Of a DNA stretch of 64,000 bases, positions 1,597 to 25,520 are shown in pieces (position 1 is the stretch's first letter; each line of letters begins with the position of its first letter). Made by a program: the position numbers and the translations under genes. The notes under the pieces are model-generated. The model was given only the letters and a program-made list of their open reading frames with translations. It had not been told where the DNA came from and did not search any database. Location: assembly GCA_003213115.1 (NCBI GenBank), contig QCNU01000001.1:310001-374000 (forward strand), read 5' to 3'. Origin of the DNA: Pelagibacteraceae bacterium AG-426-L23 (GTDB taxonomy: Bacteria > Pseudomonadota > Alphaproteobacteria > Pelagibacterales > Pelagibacteraceae).

Positions 1597-2768
1597 TATA
1601 GTTTTTTTGCGTGATATTTAATAAAATTTTCAACTTTCTTTTTGTTAAAGTGCTTGTTCTCTTCAAAAGATACTTTTTTCATTGAATAAGCTTTATTATT
1701 ACTTCTTCTAGATAAAATTATCACATTACCCTTAAAAATCTTCAGGACAACTTGTCCTACAACCAGATTTCTTTTTTTATCAATAATTTTTTGAAGCTTC
1801 ATCCTTTTCTTTGAAAACCAATACCCATTATAAACAAGTTCTGAATAAAATGGCATTATTCTCTCTTTGTTGTGCATAGTGTCTTTATCTAATGTAATTG
1901 ACTCTATAGCCCTATGAGCACAATATAATATAGTCCCACCCGGTGTTTCATAAACCCCTCTAGATTTTATTCCAATAAATCTATTCTCAACTAAATCAAC
2001 TCTACCAACTCCATTTTTTCCTCCTATTTGATTTAGCTTCTCTAAAAGTTTTTCTGGTTTAAGTTTCTTTCCGTTAATAGAAATTGGATCTCCATTTTTA
2101 AAGTCTATTTTAATAAGTGTAGCTTTGTTTGGAGTTTTTTCTATTGGTTTTGTTCTTTGAAAAATAAACTCTGGAGCAGTATTTTTAGGATTTTCGAGCA
2201 CCTTACCCTCTGTTGAAGTATGAAAAATATTGTCATCAACTGAAAAAGGAGGTGCCCCTTTTTTATCTTTTGTTATAGGAATTTTATTTTTTTTAGCATA
2301 TCTGATTAAGTCAGTTCTTGATTGAAAATTCCATTCTCTCCAAGGAGCAATTACTTTAATTTTTTTTCCAAAATAAGCATAAGCTAATTCAAATCTTACT
2401 TGATCATTTCCTTTTCCAGTTGCTCCGTGAGAAACAGCGAAGGCTCCAAATTTTTTTGCAACAGCTATTTGTCTTTTTCCAATTAAAGGTCTTGCTATGG
2501 AAGTTCCTAATAAATATGTTCCCTCGTAAACTGCATGAGCCCTTATCATTGGAAATACATATTCTTTTACAAATGTATTTTTTAAATCTTCTATAATTAT
2601 CTTTTTAACTCCCAGTTTTTTTGCGTTTTTAATTATTTTTTTTCTATCAATTACTTGACCAATATCAGCCGTGTAAGCAATTATTTCTGCTTTATATTTT
2701 TCTTGAAGCCATCTAAGAATTATTGAAGTGTCCAATCCACCTGAATAAGCTAAAACAATCTTTTTCAT
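1596..2768 (-). CDS. argG: argininosuccinate synthase
   Basis: A 390-aa cytoplasmic enzyme that joins citrulline and aspartate with ATP hydrolysis in arginine synthesis. The N-terminal ATP pyrophosphatase P-loop AYSGGLDTS is at residues 7-15. Other family motifs include GTSIARPLI, a SHGATGKGNDQVRFE-like segment in the citrulline/aspartate site, and GVGRVDLVENRFIGIKSRGVYETPGG in the C-terminal half. Length is normal for ArgG. It begins directly after the stop of the IalB-family gene and its TAA overlaps the psiE ATG, so the three genes are probably one transcript. Confidence 0.97.
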   Translation of the reverse strand: MKKIVLAYSGGLDTSIILRWLQEKYKAEIIAYTADIGQVIDRKKIIKNAKKLGVKKIIIEDLKNTFVKEYVFPMIRAHAVYEGTYLLGTSIARPLIGKRQIAVAKKFGAFAVSHGATGKGNDQVRFELAYAYFGKKIKVIAPWREWNFQSRTDLIRYAKKNKIPITKDKKGAPPFSVDDNIFHTSTEGKVLENPKNTAPEFIFQRTKPIEKTPNKATLIKIDFKNGDPISINGKKLKPEKLLEKLNQIGGKNGVGRVDLVENRFIGIKSRGVYETPGGTILYCAHRAIESITLDKDTMHNKERIMPFYSELVYNGYWFSKKRMKLQKIIDKKRNLVVGQVVLKIFKGNVIILSRRSNNKAYSMKKVSFEENKHFNKKKVENFIKYHAKKL

Positions 2769-3266
2769 TTAGCCGCAAACTTTTTTGGCAGTATTGTATG
2801 CTTTTGTGAATCCCATCATAGAGTAATGATCTGTAGTTTGGGTGCCATTTTTTGCATTAGCTTTGACCATTAAATTTGTTGCTCTCTTCATTACCTTAAT
2901 AAATTTTTTTTCTTCTCTTTCATCAAGCAACCAAGCAAATTTTTCCTGCGAAAAAAAACTAAAACTATTTTTTCCAGATTTTGCAACTACACTCGATGGT
3001 TTATATAAGTGTCCACTAGTAATACTAACTTCATCTGTGATATTTTCTCCAGGTCTAAAAGTAACAAATATTCTAGAGTCCTCTCTTTTAAAACTTTCTG
3101 GACCTCTTTTAGAAGGAACTGATTGAGCAAAACATATTTTACCTTTGTCTGTATTTGTCGTAAAACTTTGCCAGTTTTTATATTTTCCAACTGACTTCGG
3201 AGTTTCTGCGATTGCTTCAAAAGATATTATAAAAAATAATGTTATTAAAAATAATTTAAACTTCAT
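2769..3266 (-). CDS. invasion-associated locus B (IalB) family exported protein
   Basis: A 165-aa protein with a Sec signal peptide (cleavage likely after residue 20, AIA). The mature part has the family pattern: a WxxF near the start, a KICFAQSVP strand, and a C-terminal TTDHYSMMGFTKAYNTAKKVC ending in Cys (residues about 144-164). This is the pattern of the alphaproteobacterial IalB domain family. The name comes from Bartonella, but the family is widespread in free-living species and its molecular role is unclear. It sits directly upstream of argG. Periplasmic or outer-membrane-associated location is inferred from the signal peptide. Confidence 0.85.
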   Translation of the reverse strand: MKFKLFLITLFFIISFEAIAETPKSVGKYKNWQSFTTNTDKGKICFAQSVPSKRGPESFKREDSRIFVTFRPGENITDEVSITSGHLYKPSSVVAKSGKNSFSFFSQEKFAWLLDEREEKKFIKVMKRATNLMVKANAKNGTQTTDHYSMMGFTKAYNTAKKVCG

Positions 3267-3315
3267 AATGAATATTTATACTAAAAAAAAAGTATTTCAA
3301 TGGTTGCTAAACATT

Positions 3316-4353
3316 TTATGGTGCTGGGTTAGGATTATTGTTATGTATTAAATTAATTTTTTCCATTATTTCTTCAGTTAGTTCAACTTTAATACTGTCT
3401 ATATTCTCTTTTAATTGATCCATTGTAGTTGCTCCTATAATATTACTTGTAACAAACGGTCTAGAATTTACAAATGCTTGTGCCAATTGAACCATCGTCA
3501 TATTATTTTCTTTAGAGAGTTTATGGTATTCATCATAAGCTTTCATCGCTAGAGGGTTGAGCATTCTTTCCCAGCCCTTAAATAAAGTCATCCTTGCATT
3601 TTTTGGCATTTGACCATTTCTATATTTTCCTGATAACGCGCCAGAAGCTAAAGGATAGTAAACTAATAAACCACATTTTTCTCTTATGGAAATTTCTGAC
3701 ATACCTATTTCATATGTTCTATTTACTAAGCTATAAGGATTTTGAACTGACATCATTCTAGGTAGATTTTTGTTTTTTGATATCTCTAAATATTTTGAAA
3801 GACCATAAGGAGTTTCATTTGATACTCCGATGTATCTAATTTTTCCATTTTTGATGAATTTTTCTAACGACTGTAAAACATTTTCAAAATCATTCCATTC
3901 CCCTTCATTTTTATCCACTTTATATTCTCTTCTACCGAAGCAATTTGTAGATCTTTCGGGCCAATGTAGTTGATAAAGATCTATATAATCTGTTTTTAAT
4001 CTCTTCAAACTGTTATCTATAGCTTCTTCAATCTTTTTTTCAGAAAAGCTATTTTTACCACCTCTTATCCAATCTAAACCTGGACCAGCAATCTTTGAAG
4101 CTAAAATTATCTTATCCCTATTTTTTCTTTTTTCAAACCAGTTGCCAATCATTGTTTCTGTTTTGCCATAGGAGTCTTTAGTAGGTGGAACAGAGTAAAG
4201 TTCAGCTGTATCAAAAAAATTAATACCTTGGTCAATCGAGTAATCCATTTGCTCAAAAGCATCTTTTTCTGAATTTTGAGTTCCCCATGTCATTGTTCCA
4301 AGACAAATGAGGCTTACATTCAAATTTGTATTACCTAGTTTTCTAAATTTCAT
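3316..4353 (-). CDS. tas: aldo/keto reductase, Tas type
   Basis: A 345-aa NADPH-dependent aldo/keto reductase. The catalytic tetrad of the superfamily is visible: D48 and Y53 (FFDTAELYSVP), K87 (IILASKIAG) and H130 (LYQLHWPERS). Length and the opening GTMTWGTQNSEKDAFEQMDY match the E. coli Tas/YgdS branch, which has 346 residues. Physiological substrate is unknown; Tas was found as a suppressor of tyrosine starvation, so the symbol indicates family only. It is transcribed away from the Bax inhibitor-like gene, and a 50-base gap separates it from the IalB gene downstream. Confidence 0.9.
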   Translation of the reverse strand: MKFRKLGNTNLNVSLICLGTMTWGTQNSEKDAFEQMDYSIDQGINFFDTAELYSVPPTKDSYGKTETMIGNWFEKRKNRDKIILASKIAGPGLDWIRGGKNSFSEKKIEEAIDNSLKRLKTDYIDLYQLHWPERSTNCFGRREYKVDKNEGEWNDFENVLQSLEKFIKNGKIRYIGVSNETPYGLSKYLEISKNKNLPRMMSVQNPYSLVNRTYEIGMSEISIREKCGLLVYYPLASGALSGKYRNGQMPKNARMTLFKGWERMLNPLAMKAYDEYHKLSKENNMTMVQLAQAFVNSRPFVTSNIIGATTMDQLKENIDSIKVELTEEIMEKINLIHNNNPNPAP

Positions 4354-4430: not shown

Positions 4431-5186
4431 ATGGCTCTAAATAAACAAAGCACTACGGTAAAATCATCAGTATCTCAAGCTATAATAGATCAGGGATTAA
4501 GATCTTATATGCTTAACGTTTATAATTATATGGCATCAGGAGTTCTTCTTACAGGATTTGTTGCTTTAGTCTTGTTTAAGTTAGCTGTGGTTACAGACTC
4601 AACAACTGGGCAAATAATTGGCCTCACTACTGTTGGTAACGCAATATACAACTCTCCTTTAATGTGGGTTTTAATGCTAGCGCCATTAGGAATAGTTTTT
4701 TACTTGGGATTCAAAATAGCAAATATGAGTGTATCAAAAGCCCAAACTATGTTTTGGATTTTTGCAGCTCTAATGGGTGCCTCTCTTTCATCTATATTTT
4801 TGGTTTACACAGGAACAAGTATTACTAGAGTATTTTTTATTACATCTGGAACTTTTGGAGCTATGAGCATTTATGGTTACACAACAAAAAGAGACCTTAC
4901 TAAGTTGGGATCTTTCTTAATGATGGGTCTTATTGGAATTATAATTGCTTCAATTGTTAATATATTTATGAAATCTTCAATGATGTATTTTGTGATTTCA
5001 ATACTAGGAGTACTAATCTTTGTTGGTTTAACAGCCTATGATACTCAAAAAATTAAAAATATGTATTTAGCTAGTGATAGCGGAGAACTTATGGGCAAAA
5101 AAGCAGTAATGGGCGCTTTAACTTTATACTTGGATTTTATAAATTTATTTATAATGCTTTTGAGACTTTTCGGGCAAAGAAGATAA
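4431..5186 (+). CDS. Bax inhibitor-1 / YccA-YbhL family membrane protein
   Basis: A 251-aa protein with about seven membrane-spanning segments, from the first at residues 32-52 to the last near 225-245. The C-terminal part has GLTAYDTQKIKNMY and LYLDFINLFIMLLRLFG, the signature of the UPF0005/BI-1 family. In bacteria, family members act as inner-membrane pH-sensitive calcium leak channels or interact with FtsH; which role applies here is not known. It is a single gene between the divergent tas gene and the convergent DUF2794 gene, with only 7 bases to the latter's stop. Confidence 0.93.
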   Translation: MALNKQSTTVKSSVSQAIIDQGLRSYMLNVYNYMASGVLLTGFVALVLFKLAVVTDSTTGQIIGLTTVGNAIYNSPLMWVLMLAPLGIVFYLGFKIANMSVSKAQTMFWIFAALMGASLSSIFLVYTGTSITRVFFITSGTFGAMSIYGYTTKRDLTKLGSFLMMGLIGIIIASIVNIFMKSSMMYFVISILGVLIFVGLTAYDTQKIKNMYLASDSGELMGKKAVMGALTLYLDFINLFIMLLRLFGQRR

Positions 5187-6169: not shown

Positions 6170-6490
6170 ATGTCTATTAATAATGCAAAGTTCTCAATTG
6201 GAAATGTCGTTAAACATCGTCACTTTGATTTTAGGGGTGTTATCTACGACGTAGACTTTGAGTTTAACAATTCAGAAGAATGGTACCAGTCAATACCCAA
6301 GGATGTCAGACCGAGAAAAGATCAACCATTTTATCATCTGTTAGCCGAGAGTAATGGAGTTACATATGAGGCTTATGTTTCAGAGCAAAATTTGCTACAC
6401 GACAAATCTGGTGAGCCGGTGAAACACCCGTTAATTGATGAGATTTTTTCTGGGAAAAAAGGTAGCAGTTATTTTAAGCTTTCAAATTAA
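6170..6490 (+). CDS. hspQ: heat shock protein HspQ / hemimethylated-DNA-binding YccV domain
   Basis: A 106-aa single-domain protein. Residues 6-100 carry the YccV-like domain: FSIGNVVKHRHFDFRGVIYDVD, EEWYQSIPKDVRPRKDQPFYHLL, and YEAYVSEQNLL. In E. coli HspQ is a heat-inducible protein that modulates Lon protease and was first reported to bind hemimethylated DNA. No transcription partner: yciB is divergent upstream and a 186-base gap with a stem-loop separates it from ccmC. Confidence 0.92.
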   Translation: MSINNAKFSIGNVVKHRHFDFRGVIYDVDFEFNNSEEWYQSIPKDVRPRKDQPFYHLLAESNGVTYEAYVSEQNLLHDKSGEPVKHPLIDEIFSGKKGSSYFKLSN

Positions 6491-6566
6491 TAAAAATATC
6501 GTTTCGCCACAAATTTAACATCATTAACTCAAAACTATGACAAAAATTAGAGTTATTTATTTGGGG

Positions 6567-6630
6567 TTAGAGCCTGATTGGGAATTACTCATACTTCTTT
6601 AACTCCCTCTCAATTCTCAATTAGGCCTAA
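6567..6630 (+). ncRNA. long stem-loop between hspQ and ccmC, candidate structured RNA
   Basis: Bases 6567-6586 pair with 6612-6630 to form a stem of 19 pairs with one bulged A (6571) and a 25-base loop. Two pairs are G-U (G6576/U6622 and G6581/U6617) only in the plus-strand RNA; the minus strand would have A-C mismatches there, so the structure fits a plus-strand transcript. No U-tract follows, so it is not a usual intrinsic terminator. A competing pairing of GGGG TTA at 6563-6569 with TAACTCCC near 6600-6607, and TAACTC/GAGTTA at 6525-6555, are also possible. It lies 46 bases before ccmC. Identity unknown. Confidence 0.5.
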
Positions 6631-6675
6631 ATTACTTCTTCACAAAAAAATAATATTCATGTAGTTAGTTAATTT

Positions 6676-7383
6676 ATGTTTAACTTTTTTTCACCTACTA
6701 ATATTTTTTTAATTTTAAGTAGAATACAAAAATTTATAAACTCAATATTTTTCCCAATCCTGATAGTAAGTTTAGTTTTTGCATTAATCTTATCACCTCC
6801 AGATCGTATTCAAGGCGATGCAATGAGAATAATGTACGTTCACGTTCCCTCAGCTTGGCTTGGTCTTGCATGTTTTTCAGCGATTACAGTATTATCAATA
6901 TTAGCTTTTATTTTTAAAATAAAAAATTTTTTTTACATTAATAAAAGCCTTGCTCCAATAGGATTGCTTTTTACTTTTCTTGCTATAGTAACCGGCTCAC
7001 TTTGGGGAGAACCTACATGGGGAACTTGGTGGGTTTGGGATGCAAGATTGACTTCTATGATGTTTTTAATGTTTTTTTATATCTCTTATATTTTATGTTT
7101 TAAATTTATTAAAAAAGAGCAACTTATGTTAAAGGTTTCATCTTTAATAGCAATTCTTGGAGCAATCAATTTACCAATTATAAAGTATTCAGTTGATTGG
7201 TGGACGACACTTCATCAGCCAGCAAGTATCAAATTGGGAGTCTCTAATAGTATACATTCGACAATGATGTTACCATTATTATCAATGCTGTTAGTTTTAG
7301 TGTTATATGGTGCGCTAATTTTTCTAATGAAATACAAAACGGAAATCATTAGAATAAAGAAAAAAAGTATTAAAAGATTATGA
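6676..7383 (+). CDS. ccmC: heme exporter/heme-handling protein CcmC
   Basis: A 235-aa inner-membrane protein with six membrane segments. The periplasmic tryptophan-rich WWD motif is visible (WGTWWVWDARLTSMMFLMF), with the conserved histidines in MYVHVPSAW and WWTTLHQPASI. CcmC presents heme to CcmE during cytochrome c maturation. Length is close to the usual 240 residues. It is first in the ccmCDEFGH run; its stop overlaps ccmD. The ABC subunits ccmA and ccmB, often just upstream, are not in this window. Confidence 0.95.
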   Translation: MFNFFSPTNIFLILSRIQKFINSIFFPILIVSLVFALILSPPDRIQGDAMRIMYVHVPSAWLGLACFSAITVLSILAFIFKIKNFFYINKSLAPIGLLFTFLAIVTGSLWGEPTWGTWWVWDARLTSMMFLMFFYISYILCFKFIKKEQLMLKVSSLIAILGAINLPIIKYSVDWWTTLHQPASIKLGVSNSIHSTMMLPLLSMLLVLVLYGALIFLMKYKTEIIRIKKKSIKRL

Positions 7384-8044: not shown

Positions 8045-9927
8045 TGCTAAGCAACACAGGAATAACTTTAGTAATATTAACAACCCTTTTAAGTGCATTA
8101 ATTATTTATAAATCTTTTACTGAACTTCATATTGAAAATAATTTTATTAATAAAAAGATTTTTAATTTAGTAACTTTTCAAACCACATTTTCCATTCTTA
8201 GTTTTTTTGTACTAATTGCAGGATTTGTTATTTCTGATTTTTCTTTAATTAATGTTTATGAAAACTCACACACAAAAAAACCATTTTTTTACAAAGTATC
8301 CGGGGCTTGGGGTAGCCATGAGGGAAGCTTATTACTCTGGATAAATATACTGGTAATTTTTTCATTTTTATTTTTAGTTTTCACTAAGCATAATAATAAA
8401 TCTTATCTACTTTATACTTTAATCTTTCAAAATTTTTTAATTTTAGGATTTTTAATTTTTTTACTTATTAATTCAAATCCTTTTAGTAAGATTTATCCTA
8501 TTCCAATAGAGGGACTTGGTTTAAATCCAATTTTACAGGATCCAGCTTTAGCAATTCACCCTCCTTTGCTTTACATTGGATTTGTCGGATCCTCAATTTA
8601 CTTTTCAGCAGGTATCGCGTCATTAATAAGTAATTGTAGAGATAAATTTTTTGCTAAATCTATAAAACCATGGGTATTAATATCTTGGTCATTTCAAACA
8701 CTTGGGATTACAGCTGGATCTATTTGGGCTTACTACGAATTAGGATGGGGTGGATTTTGGTTTTGGGATCCAGTAGAAAACGCATCCTTAATGCCTTGGT
8801 TTGTCATTACTGCACTAATGCATTCAGTTATAGTTTTAGAAAAGAGAAATTCAATTTACTCTTGGGTAATTATCTTATGTTTATTAACTTTTACCATAAG
8901 TGTTACTGGAACTTTTCTAGTAAGATCAGGCATATTAAATTCAGTTCACACGTTTGCAAATGATCCTTCAAGAGGATTATATATTTTAATTTTTTTGTCC
9001 CTAATGATATTTTTGGCATTAGCTGCTTTTTTTCGTTACAGCAAGAAAGAGGAATACAATTTCTTGTTAAAAAGTAAAGAGACATTAATATTAGCTAATA
9101 ATTGGTTTATGTTTTTTTTTCTAACTTCAGTTATGATAGGAACTCTTTACCCTATAATTCTGGAGGTTTTAAATGATACTAAAATTTCAGTAGGTCCACC
9201 ATTTTATAGTGCAGTTATATTTCCTTTTGTGATTCCATTTTTAATATTCATGGCTATAGGACCTAAAATAAATTGGATCAAGAATAAGTATAGCAGAATT
9301 TTGTCAAACTTTTATATTTTGATTGCATCAATTTTCCTAAATTTATTAGTTTATTTCATTTTTGGCAAATACAGTATTATTTCAAATTTAATTATAATTT
9401 CTTCAATTTTTTTAATTATACATTCAATAAAAGATTTTTTTATTTTTTTTAAAAAAAAAAATGAAAGTGACATTTCGAGAATTGTATCTCATTTAGGTTT
9501 TGGAATGTTAATTCTTTTTATAGGCATTAGTCATAATTTTACAGTTGAAAATGATTTTAATTTAAAAGTTGGAGAAGAAAAAAAATTTAGTGGTTATCAA
9601 ATTAATTTTAACTCTGTTAGAATGGAAAATGAGAAGAATTATAAAAAAATAATTGGGGAGTTTAAGTTAGTTAATCTCAAAAGCAATTTAGAGGAAATTT
9701 TATATCCTGAAATAAGAATTTATGACCAACCTGAAACATTAACTTATGAGGCTTCAATAAAAACAAAACTATCCGCTGATACATATCTTACTATGAGTAA
9801 TATTTCGCGGTCAGACTATTATAATATTAAATTCCAAAACAAACCTTTTATGATTTGGATATGGATTTCAGCAATATTAATTGCAAGTGGAGGGTTTATA
9901 AGATTAATAAAAATTAAGATGCAATGA
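8044..9927 (+). CDS. ccmF: cytochrome c heme lyase subunit CcmF
   Basis: A 627-aa multi-pass membrane protein (about 14 segments). The family motifs are present: GAWGSHEGSLLLW near residue 90, LHP-type segment AIHPPLLYIG, and the WWD-like motif GWGGFWFWDPVENASLMPW. TFLVRSGILNSVHTFA follows. CcmF attaches heme to apocytochrome c with CcmH. It is slightly shorter than the roughly 650-residue relatives in the periplasmic C-terminal loop. The stop overlaps the ccmG start (ATGA). Confidence 0.97.
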   Translation: MLSNTGITLVILTTLLSALIIYKSFTELHIENNFINKKIFNLVTFQTTFSILSFFVLIAGFVISDFSLINVYENSHTKKPFFYKVSGAWGSHEGSLLLWINILVIFSFLFLVFTKHNNKSYLLYTLIFQNFLILGFLIFLLINSNPFSKIYPIPIEGLGLNPILQDPALAIHPPLLYIGFVGSSIYFSAGIASLISNCRDKFFAKSIKPWVLISWSFQTLGITAGSIWAYYELGWGGFWFWDPVENASLMPWFVITALMHSVIVLEKRNSIYSWVIILCLLTFTISVTGTFLVRSGILNSVHTFANDPSRGLYILIFLSLMIFLALAAFFRYSKKEEYNFLLKSKETLILANNWFMFFFLTSVMIGTLYPIILEVLNDTKISVGPPFYSAVIFPFVIPFLIFMAIGPKINWIKNKYSRILSNFYILIASIFLNLLVYFIFGKYSIISNLIIISSIFLIIHSIKDFFIFFKKKNESDISRIVSHLGFGMLILFIGISHNFTVENDFNLKVGEEKKFSGYQINFNSVRMENEKNYKKIIGEFKLVNLKSNLEEILYPEIRIYDQPETLTYEASIKTKLSADTYLTMSNISRSDYYNIKFQNKPFMIWIWISAILIASGGFIRLIKIKMQ

Positions 9928-10867: not shown

Positions 10868-11371
10868 ATGAAAAAAAATTTTTTTATAATTTTAGTCAGT
10901 ATATTGTTTTTAAATTCCAATTTGTCAGCTCAGGAGAGTAACAAGGATATATCTTTTTATATAGGTACTTTTGATACCAAAGACGAAGTTGGTGATGATA
11001 AAACAAATTTATTTGGTATTGAACACAAAAATCCAAACCTATTTAGAGATACGTTTTTAGGTAAAATTTCCCCGATTACCGGTGGATTTATATCTGGAAA
11101 GGGTTCTGCCTATTTATATACTGGTGTAGAGGCACAATATGATTTAGGACCTCTAAAAATTTTACCTAGTTTCACTCCAGGTTATTATCAAAAAGGAGAT
11201 GGAAAAGATTTAGGTGATGTTATTGAATTTAAAAGTGAAGTAAAAATAGGTTTCGATATATTTGAAAATTCTAAGATAGGTTATAGCTACAGCCATATTT
11301 CTAATAATGACTGGGGAGAAACTAACCCAGGTGCTGACAATCAACAATTTACATTCTCAAAAAAATTTTAG
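10868..11371 (+). CDS. PagL-like / acyloxyacyl hydrolase family outer-membrane protein
   Basis: A 167-aa protein with a signal peptide (cleavage near LSA-Q, residue 21) and alternating strand-like segments ending in Phe, the C-terminal signature of outer-membrane beta-barrels. SYSHISNNDWGETNPGADN (about residues 140-158) resembles the PagL active-site region HxSNxxxGxxNPG, with His143 and Ser145. PagL removes a 3-O-acyl chain from lipid A. The third catalytic residue is not clear, so activity is not assured. It sits 40 bases after ccmH and just 5 bases before the first lldD-type gene. Confidence 0.75.
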   Translation: MKKNFFIILVSILFLNSNLSAQESNKDISFYIGTFDTKDEVGDDKTNLFGIEHKNPNLFRDTFLGKISPITGGFISGKGSAYLYTGVEAQYDLGPLKILPSFTPGYYQKGDGKDLGDVIEFKSEVKIGFDIFENSKIGYSYSHISNNDWGETNPGADNQQFTFSKKF

Positions 11372-22894: not shown

Positions 22895-23690
22895 ATATAT
22901 GATTTCTTTTTTTACGGCAATAATCTTAATTTATTTGCTGATAATAGCTTTTATGTACTTTAATCAACGTAACTTACTTTACCATCCTTCTGAAAATAAT
23001 TATACAAATGACGTAGTAGAATTTACTTTTGAAGAAGTTAGCATACCAACACCAACTGGTATTAAGATCAAGGGATGGTTTCATAAAAAAGATTTAAACC
23101 AAAAAAAAACACTAGTTTTTTTTCATGGAAATGCAGGTGACTTATCTAACAGAATACACAAGCTTAATTTAATTAAAAATTTTGACATAAATTTTTTAAT
23201 AGTAGCTTATAGAGGCTTTAGTGGGAACGAAGGTAAACCAACGGAAAAAGGATTATACGAAGATGCGAAAAGCACTTTAAATTGGTTATCAAAAAAAAAA
23301 ATTACTGATGATAAAATTATTATTTACGGCGAGTCTCTAGGTACTGGTGTTTCAATAGAAGTAACACAAAATAAGAGATATGCTGGTCTAATTTTAGAGT
23401 CACCATTCACCTCAATGGTAGATGCAGCTAAATTTTATTATCCTTATTTACCTGTATCACTTATCCTTAAAGATAAATACGAAAGCTTAAAAAAATTAAA
23501 GAATATAAAGATTCCTATTTTAGTAATGCATGGAAAAAAAGACAGAATCGTTCCGTTTAAAATGGGAAAAATTGTTTTTGAAAGAGCGAATGAACCTAAA
23601 TACTCATATTTTCCTGAAGATGATGATCATATGATGGAATATAATGAAAATCTTTTAAAAATTTTAAATAAATTCTTTAACTCAATTTAA
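22878..23690 (+). CDS. membrane-anchored alpha/beta hydrolase, BEM46-like
   Basis: A 270-aa hydrolase with an N-terminal membrane anchor (about residues 9-27). LVFFHGNAGD (oxyanion), the nucleophile elbow IYGESLGTGVS and the acid/His region HGKKDRIVPF then DDDHMMEY complete the Ser-Asp-His triad. This matches the BEM46/ABHD13-like serine hydrolases. The TTG start has an AGGA seven bases upstream and adds a basic KKIK before the anchor; the ATG at 22899 is the alternative and lacks a ribosome site. Substrate unknown. The stop overlaps the converging ftsY stop. Confidence 0.88.
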   Translation: MQKKIKYMISFFTAIILIYLLIIAFMYFNQRNLLYHPSENNYTNDVVEFTFEEVSIPTPTGIKIKGWFHKKDLNQKKTLVFFHGNAGDLSNRIHKLNLIKNFDINFLIVAYRGFSGNEGKPTEKGLYEDAKSTLNWLSKKKITDDKIIIYGESLGTGVSIEVTQNKRYAGLILESPFTSMVDAAKFYYPYLPVSLILKDKYESLKKLKNIKIPILVMHGKKDRIVPFKMGKIVFERANEPKYSYFPEDDDHMMEYNENLLKILNKFFNSI

Positions 23691-24562
23691 TTTTCTAACA
23701 TCAACTTTGTAAATTCACTTGCATTAAATTGTCGTAAATCACTATCTTTCTCCCCAACCCCTACCGCAATTATAGGTAAATTAAATTTTTTACAAATAGA
23801 TAAAATTACACCTGCTCTTGCTTCACTATCTAATTTTGTGATTATTAAACTTGTTATATTAGATGCTTTTTGAAATTCACTTACTTGGTTTATAGCGTTT
23901 TGACCTGTGGTAGCATCTAAAACTAAAATTGTTTCATGAGGGTAGTCTGGATTTATTTTTTGTAAAACTTTGAATATTTTTTTATATTCATCCATTAGAT
24001 TTTTTTTATTTTGAAGTCTACCCGCAGTATCAATTAAAGCTAAATCAAATTTTTTTTCTTCAGCAAACTTTACAGTTTTATAAGCGACAGATGCAGGGTC
24101 AGATCCTAAATCTGATTTAACAAAATCAACATTGATTTTTTTTGACCAGACTTCAAGCTGTTCTATAGCAGCTGCTCTAAAAGTATCTGCTGCACCAAAA
24201 ACAATTTTTTTTCCCTCATTTTTATATAACTTACCCAACTTACCGATTGTTGTTGTTTTGCCAACACCATTTACCCCAGCTACAACTACAACTGTAGTAG
24301 AATTTTTTTGAAACTCATTAAGTCTTTTTTCATAAGGCTGAAGTATTTTTGTAATTTGATTACCTAGAAAATTAAATATTTCTTTTTCATTTTTTATCTC
24401 TTTACCAATCTTTTCTTTTTTAAACTCATTTTTTAATTGTGCAGCCATAGCTGGACCAACATCAGACTCAATTAGAAGCTCTTCGAATTTATCAAGCAAG
24501 TTTTCATCTATCTTTTTTTTACTTAATAAATTGCTAAATTTAAAATTTTCAAAAAATTTCAT
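23687..24562 (-). CDS. ftsY: signal recognition particle receptor FtsY, NG domain only
   Basis: A 291-aa SRP-receptor GTPase. The N domain (residues about 1-75) is followed by the G domain with P-loop GVNGVGKTT (96-104), DTFRAAAIEQL, DTAGR and TKLD. It lacks the long acidic A domain of the E. coli protein (about 200 extra residues), as in several Alphaproteobacteria. It receives ribosome-SRP complexes at the membrane, working with Ffh, which is encoded nearby on the other strand. It overlaps dapF by one base. Confidence 0.96.
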   Translation of the reverse strand: MKFFENFKFSNLLSKKKIDENLLDKFEELLIESDVGPAMAAQLKNEFKKEKIGKEIKNEKEIFNFLGNQITKILQPYEKRLNEFQKNSTTVVVVAGVNGVGKTTTIGKLGKLYKNEGKKIVFGAADTFRAAAIEQLEVWSKKINVDFVKSDLGSDPASVAYKTVKFAEEKKFDLALIDTAGRLQNKKNLMDEYKKIFKVLQKINPDYPHETILVLDATTGQNAINQVSEFQKASNITSLIITKLDSEARAGVILSICKKFNLPIIAVGVGEKDSDLRQFNASEFTKLMLEN

Positions 24563-25441: not shown

Positions 25442-25520
25442 CCGCAAACAGTAGATTTTGCGGTGCCTTTAGAAATAAAGGGATCGACACTAGTCAGCGA
25501 GGGTTCGCCCACTAGTGCGA
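25442..25520 (+). ncRNA. three-hairpin leader of ffh, candidate ffh RNA motif
   Basis: Three hairpins stand in tandem before ffh. CCGCAAA (25442-25448) pairs with TTTGCGG (25457-25463). CCTTT (25466-25470) pairs with AAAGG (25477-25481). TCG-A-CACTAGT (25484-25494) pairs with ACTAGTG-CGA (25511-25520), enclosing a GGG-TTCG-CCC hairpin (25501-25510). The region is much more GC-rich than its surroundings. A conserved RNA upstream of ffh has been described as the ffh motif; I recall the name but cannot confirm a match. It could control ffh expression. It lacks the SRP RNA GGAAGCA-type tetraloop region, so it is not 4.5S RNA. Confidence 0.65.

Follow-up and report, generated by a model that had tools for sequence, protein, structure and literature searches.

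Comparison of SAR11 genomes gives good support to a stand-alone RNA gene, read from the plus strand and equipped with a promoter of its own, in the gap between hspQ and ccmC. The strand of the RNA, its stem, the fixed sequence of its loop, the architecture of its promoter and its independence from both neighbouring genes all emerge from this comparison. We think it probable, with some reserve, that the gene encodes a small RNA (sRNA) that is switched by a response regulator of the OmpR family and acts in trans through an anti-Shine-Dalgarno loop. The element appears to be undescribed so far.

The window, i.e., the whole stretch of 64,000 nucleotides analysed, is part of a 987-kb SAR11 genome. 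The features of the hspQ-ccmC region are listed in Table 1. The gap between the two genes was compared in 28 further genomes of the genus, where it measures 165-194 nt and has the same stem inside. A Bax inhibitor-1 family gene (ybhL-like; 4431-5186, plus strand) lies shortly upstream of the hspQ-element-ccmC block; a marine study made in situ (PMC5069720) lists ybhL of HTCC7211 as having the second most active start.

Table 1. Observed and predicted features of the hspQ-ccmC region (positions in the window)
Feature	Position	Strand	Basis
hspQ, 5' neighbour of the element	6170..6490	+	PF08755 YccV-like, E 7e-29
Putative operator, four direct nnCA half-sites with an 11-bp period	6506..6542	+	Cytosine conservation, family PWM
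Half-sites GCCA, AACA, CTCA and GACA	6506-6509, 6517-6520, 6528-6531, 6539-6542	+	
Putative -10 box TATTTA, 11 bp past GACA	6554..6559	+	TAnnnT at fixed offset
Predicted transcription start and short 5' leader GUUAGA	6566..6571	+	6-7 nt past the -10 box
Hairpin, 5' arm	6572..6586	+	14 conserved covarying pairs and one inner pair
C/U-rich single-stranded loop with anti-Shine-Dalgarno-like motif ACUCCCUC at 6602-6609	6587..6611	+	CTCCC conservation, G scarcity
Hairpin, 3' arm	6612..6626	+	Same pairs as the 5' arm
Second promoter-like block before ccmC, TTCA-N11-TATTCA	6639..6659	+	Kept in the genus
ccmC, 3' neighbour of the element	6676..7383	+	PF01578, E 9e-32

A covarying hairpin read from the plus strand

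The minimum-energy fold of the RNA from 6566 to 6640 (-21.0 kcal/mol) is a 19-pair stem with one bulged A, which is where a first-pass annotation of the sequence had placed it. None of 200 shuffled sequences was equally stable (z -5.3); for the fold of the entire hspQ-ccmC gap, z is -2.6. The conserved core comprises 14 pairs (6572-6585 with 6613-6626). An inner pair, 6586-6612, is additionally present in many relatives, and the outer pairs TTAG/CTAA (6567-6570 with 6627-6630) lie outside the conserved pair set. RNAalifold predicts from the genus alignment a single helix of these 14 pairs, with compensatory changes in 4, and no conserved alternative pairing or expression platform was found in that alignment. 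The competing pairings proposed earlier are present in the sequence of the window but are not conserved. GGGG at 6563-6566 is not kept in relatives, and the pairing of TAACTC at 6525 with GAGTTA at 6550 falls inside the promoter, ahead of where transcription is predicted to start.

Fifty-four diverse hairpins were aligned with MAFFT on sequence alone. In this alignment, 98.9% of pair cells are paired, and double changes occur at all 14 pairs, with 131 double-change cells versus 39.9 in column shuffles, a control that leaves the relatedness of the sequences in place. When the partner is shifted by one column, pairing falls to about 50%. The helix is secure because of this sliding control and because the stem sequence is almost wholly different between genera. 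Once hand-found members from genera g5, g7 and g8 are included, covariation is seen at 14 of 15 pairs and 98.2% of cells are paired.

Two G-U pairs in the window had been taken to favour the plus strand, and the relatives bear this out, since the 54 hairpins hold 82 G-U or U-G cells versus 8 non-pairing cells. The opposite strand would turn the G-U cells into A-C mismatches, which identifies the plus strand as that of the RNA. On these comparisons, the stem is a plus-strand RNA under strong selection. The arms do make a 14-bp inverted repeat, as would be expected of a protein site or a mobile element acting at the level of DNA; however, with G-U tolerated on one strand only and a single copy per genome, such a reading is hardly credible.

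A promoter of its own

Ahead of the stem, the window reads GCCA-N7-AACA-N7-CTCA-N7-GACA-N11-TATTTA, following a grammar of fixed internal spacing that is seen upstream of every stem: nnCA-N7-AACA-N7-nTCA-N7-GACA-N11-TAnnnT, then 3-13 nt to the stem. Among 111 distinct upstream sequences, numbered from the G of GACA, the cytosines at -31, -20, -9 and +2 are invariant, T reaches 98% at -25 and -14 and 94% at -3, and TA at +15/+16 reaches 98% and 93%; the alignment was anchored on AACA, CAAA and GACA, so that conservation of these letters is partly built in, but the anchors included neither the C at -31 nor the T's nor the TA. The same columns stand out in the genus alignment made by MAFFT alone. 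Within the TAnnnT box, T1 is present in 111, A2 in 105 and T6 in 86 of 113 sequences. The family PWM gives the site in the window 47.7 bits and the next best place in the 64 kb -3.3, and it detected no second operator site in the 64-kb window and 370 kb of other loci.

Transcription would begin about 6 bases ahead of the stem, where a GTT is nearly invariant within the genus. Between the stem and ccmC, a block of the form TTC[AC]-N11-TAnnnn, mostly with TATTAT, occurs in 26 of 29 genus members and is probably the promoter of ccmC. It had been remarked that no U-tract follows the stem. This is right for the window's genus, in which no terminator was found, and no terminator is common to the relatives, but a run of at least five T's lies within 20 nt past the stem in 19 of 47 Pelagibacter-type relatives.

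Distribution and independence from hspQ and ccmC

Searches with a covariance model of the core hairpin gave matches in other genera of the family, all of them behind hspQ except two weak chance matches. A second model matched 300 of 397 genomes of the order, with a single match each among the genomes listed. The element is kept in at least eight genera; members of g5, g7 and g8 score low with the model, yet the element is present after hspQ. All named carriers are Pelagibacteraceae or Pelagibacterales. Among genomes without the element, eight were examined for hspQ and ccmC; they have neither gene and are therefore uninformative about the element. In the other family of the order (f2), hspQ is present and the element was not found, and viral contigs gave no exact match to its Pelagibacter form. 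A class-wide sample yielded matches in SAR11 genomes only, plus one genome (G569).

G569 is filed under another family of the class and carries an hspQ-element-ccmC contig of SAR11 type (C48; L164/L165), whose hspQ is 84% identical to that of the window. This genome may be, and probably is, mis-binned or mis-classified.

Most genomes have ccmC on the same strand as the element, a few tens of nucleotides downstream of it. In g10 and g12, the element is intact behind hspQ, a PagL-like gene comes next, and ccmC is on another contig; the homologue of the PagL-like gene in the window is at 10868-11371, after the ccm operon. In AG-439-F03 (L083), a methyltransferase-like gene of 234 aa (2872-3576) stands between hspQ and an intact promoter-hairpin block, and the conserved promoter block starts at most a few bases from where that gene ends. 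It follows that the element is neither the tail of hspQ nor the leader of ccm itself.

Two other readings are affected by these arrangements. In one, the element is a 5' leader that acts in cis on the ccm operon: RNA runs from the same promoter into ccmC, and the hairpin governs stability or translation there. The usual closeness and orientation of ccmC and the lack of a terminator in the genus would suit this possibility, but we regard it as unlikely, given the intact element without ccmC behind it in g10 and g12, the second promoter-like block after the stem, and the want of any conserved pairing with the ccmC ribosome-binding site or any conserved alternative fold. Its more specific version in the first-pass annotation, a heme, iron or redox switch for ccm, is not supported and was rejected for reasons of linkage, the element keeping its form without ccm downstream. 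In the other reading, the element belongs to the 3'-UTR of hspQ, as an mRNA stabiliser or a processed 3'-UTR sRNA, which would agree with its nearly constant place immediately behind hspQ. We hold this to be very improbable: the block upstream of the stem shows promoter grammar, and the gene insertion in L083 led to rejection of the reading. What the comparison upholds is the annotation's remaining suggestion, an independent small RNA, with a conserved promoter of its own, a plus-strand hairpin that covaries in full, and a position separated from ccmC in two genera and, in a single genome, from hspQ.

Contig C12 of another genome (G022) has two copies of ccmC with equal score and opposite orientation (2520-3224, minus strand; 23007-23711, plus strand). 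They sit near both contig ends and are probably an assembly artefact.

The candidate regulator

Direct half-sites with an 11-bp period that end 11 bp before a -10 box, with no -35 element, are the layout of activators of the OmpR/PhoB family. The Pho-box promoter of E. coli pstS likewise has half-sites with an 11-bp period, the last of them about 11 bp ahead of the -10 box, but their sequence is unlike that of the operator here. In the window's own genome, the pstS promoter has a classical Pho box, TTGTAAC-ACAT-CTGTAAT (L250, ~9214-9420, minus strand), which differs in sequence from the operator and told against PhoB control. The ChvI motif of S. meliloti, N-GCC-N8-GCC (PMC9731502), has the same 11-bp period, and its GCC half-sites resemble the operator of the element. 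A response regulator of the OmpR family probably activates the promoter, with ChvI and PhoB as candidates; ChvI is slightly preferred because the pstS Pho box has another sequence.

A two-component-controlled sRNA, ChvR, is known from Caulobacter (PMC6237742), and ChvG, the sensor of its system, is listed for SAR11 too (PMC13198564). Like the element, ChvR is a small intergenic RNA with its own promoter; in contrast, it has at least three stem-loops and another gene context, and its control by a two-component system corresponds, in the element, to a ChvI control that we only infer.

The loop and its possible targets

While the stems vary, the loop motif UCUCCCUC/ACUCCCUC is fixed and almost free of G: G accounts for 1.8% and C for 33% of loop bases, and G for 22.6% of stem bases. 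CTCCC is found in every compared hairpin but one, which has CTCAC, and the usual motif is (A/U)CUCCCUC around the fixed CUCCC core. Loop length (~17-40 nt) and the count of C (CUCCC, CUCCCC, CUCCCCCC) are variable, and the motif is nearly invariant.

AGGGAG, the complement of the loop, lies within the ribosome-binding sites of several membrane-protein genes, those for proteorhodopsin, ammonium transporters and acetate-type symporters, and, in one genome only, of phoU, these names being read off the protein sequences alone. The proteorhodopsin site is an invariant GAGGGAG in g1 and g6 and AAGGGAG in g8 and g9, and one genome of g8 (G133) has a loop, CUCCCUU, that is complementary to AAGGGAG; the site is absent in g5 and g12. 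Across ~40 genomes, loops with extra C (CUCCCCUC and longer) had no matching extra G at the proteorhodopsin site, which did not covary with the loop variants. In six genomes, AGGGAG-N3..10-ATG was not clearly enriched over a reversed control.

As a separate observation, the bases just 5' of the proteorhodopsin start codon are strikingly conserved across genera as GAGGGAGG or GAGGGAG, often with AAACTAAC ahead (L270-L284, L290-L312). This conservation perhaps exceeds the need of a plain Shine-Dalgarno site.

Alternatively, the RNA might serve a protein or the ribosome as a decoy or scaffold, its C/U loop being bound by an RNA-binding protein rather than paired with an mRNA. A motif that is nearly invariant despite varying loop length and C number would be compatible with this, as would a proteorhodopsin site that did not covary with the loop. 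However, there is no candidate protein, and the extreme scarcity of G in the loop suits a base-pairing seed at least equally; we therefore rate this alternative as quite unlikely.

Anti-Shine-Dalgarno motifs in loops on sequence-free stems are a known design of alphaproteobacterial sRNAs (PMC3927594). The rhizobial SmelA075/SmelA099 RNAs share with the element a fixed C-rich anti-Shine-Dalgarno loop, free stems and a trans-encoded location (PMC3927594), but they have three or four hairpins with CCUCCUCCC in each, whereas the element has one hairpin with CUCCCU.

Discussion

The first-pass annotation had recognized no known RNA family, and Rfam has no match for the element. At gathering score, no Rfam 15 family occurs in the window except the unrelated ffh RNA at 25473 (RF01793, 25473-25525, plus strand, E 8e-08), a known SAR11 structured RNA; a lax threshold brought up nothing credible in the gap, and the versions from other genera had no match either. 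The SAR11 RNAs described by Meyer et al. 2009 (ffh, rpsB, SAM-V, the SAR11_0636 element and others; PMC2704228) are likewise conserved intergenic structured RNAs; hspQ and ccm are not named there as neighbours, both terms being absent from the paper. Publications that deal with SAR11 RNAs, with iron limitation or with the mapping of marine transcription starts do not mention the hspQ-ccmC gap in their main text.

Two-component control combined with anti-Shine-Dalgarno action in trans appears to be the most likely mechanism. A response regulator, ChvI or PhoB, would bind the four phased half-sites, which take the place of a -35 element, and recruit RNA polymerase to the -10 box. Transcription from about 6 nt before the stem would then give an RNA dominated by one hairpin of 14-15 bp, in which the stem may be a mere scaffold that presents the nearly G-free, C/U-rich loop with (A/U)CUCCCU. 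The loop would pair in trans with purine-rich Shine-Dalgarno regions of target mRNAs and block their translation. The 3' end may be formed by a terminator in Pelagibacter and by read-through or processing in the window's genus. Distinctly improbable, in our judgement, is a wider version, in which a family-wide SAR11 sRNA under one of the few two-component systems retained by these bacteria would repress strongly translated membrane proteins with GAGGGAG-type sites, such as proteorhodopsin and the ammonium and acetate transporters.

SAR11 bacteria rank among Earth's most abundant cells, and their conserved trans-acting RNAs are little known. They have retained very few regulators of transcription and are believed to rely on post-transcriptional control (PMC13198564). 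A single-copy RNA gene with a defined predicted start, operator and loop would make both the signal and the targets directly testable.
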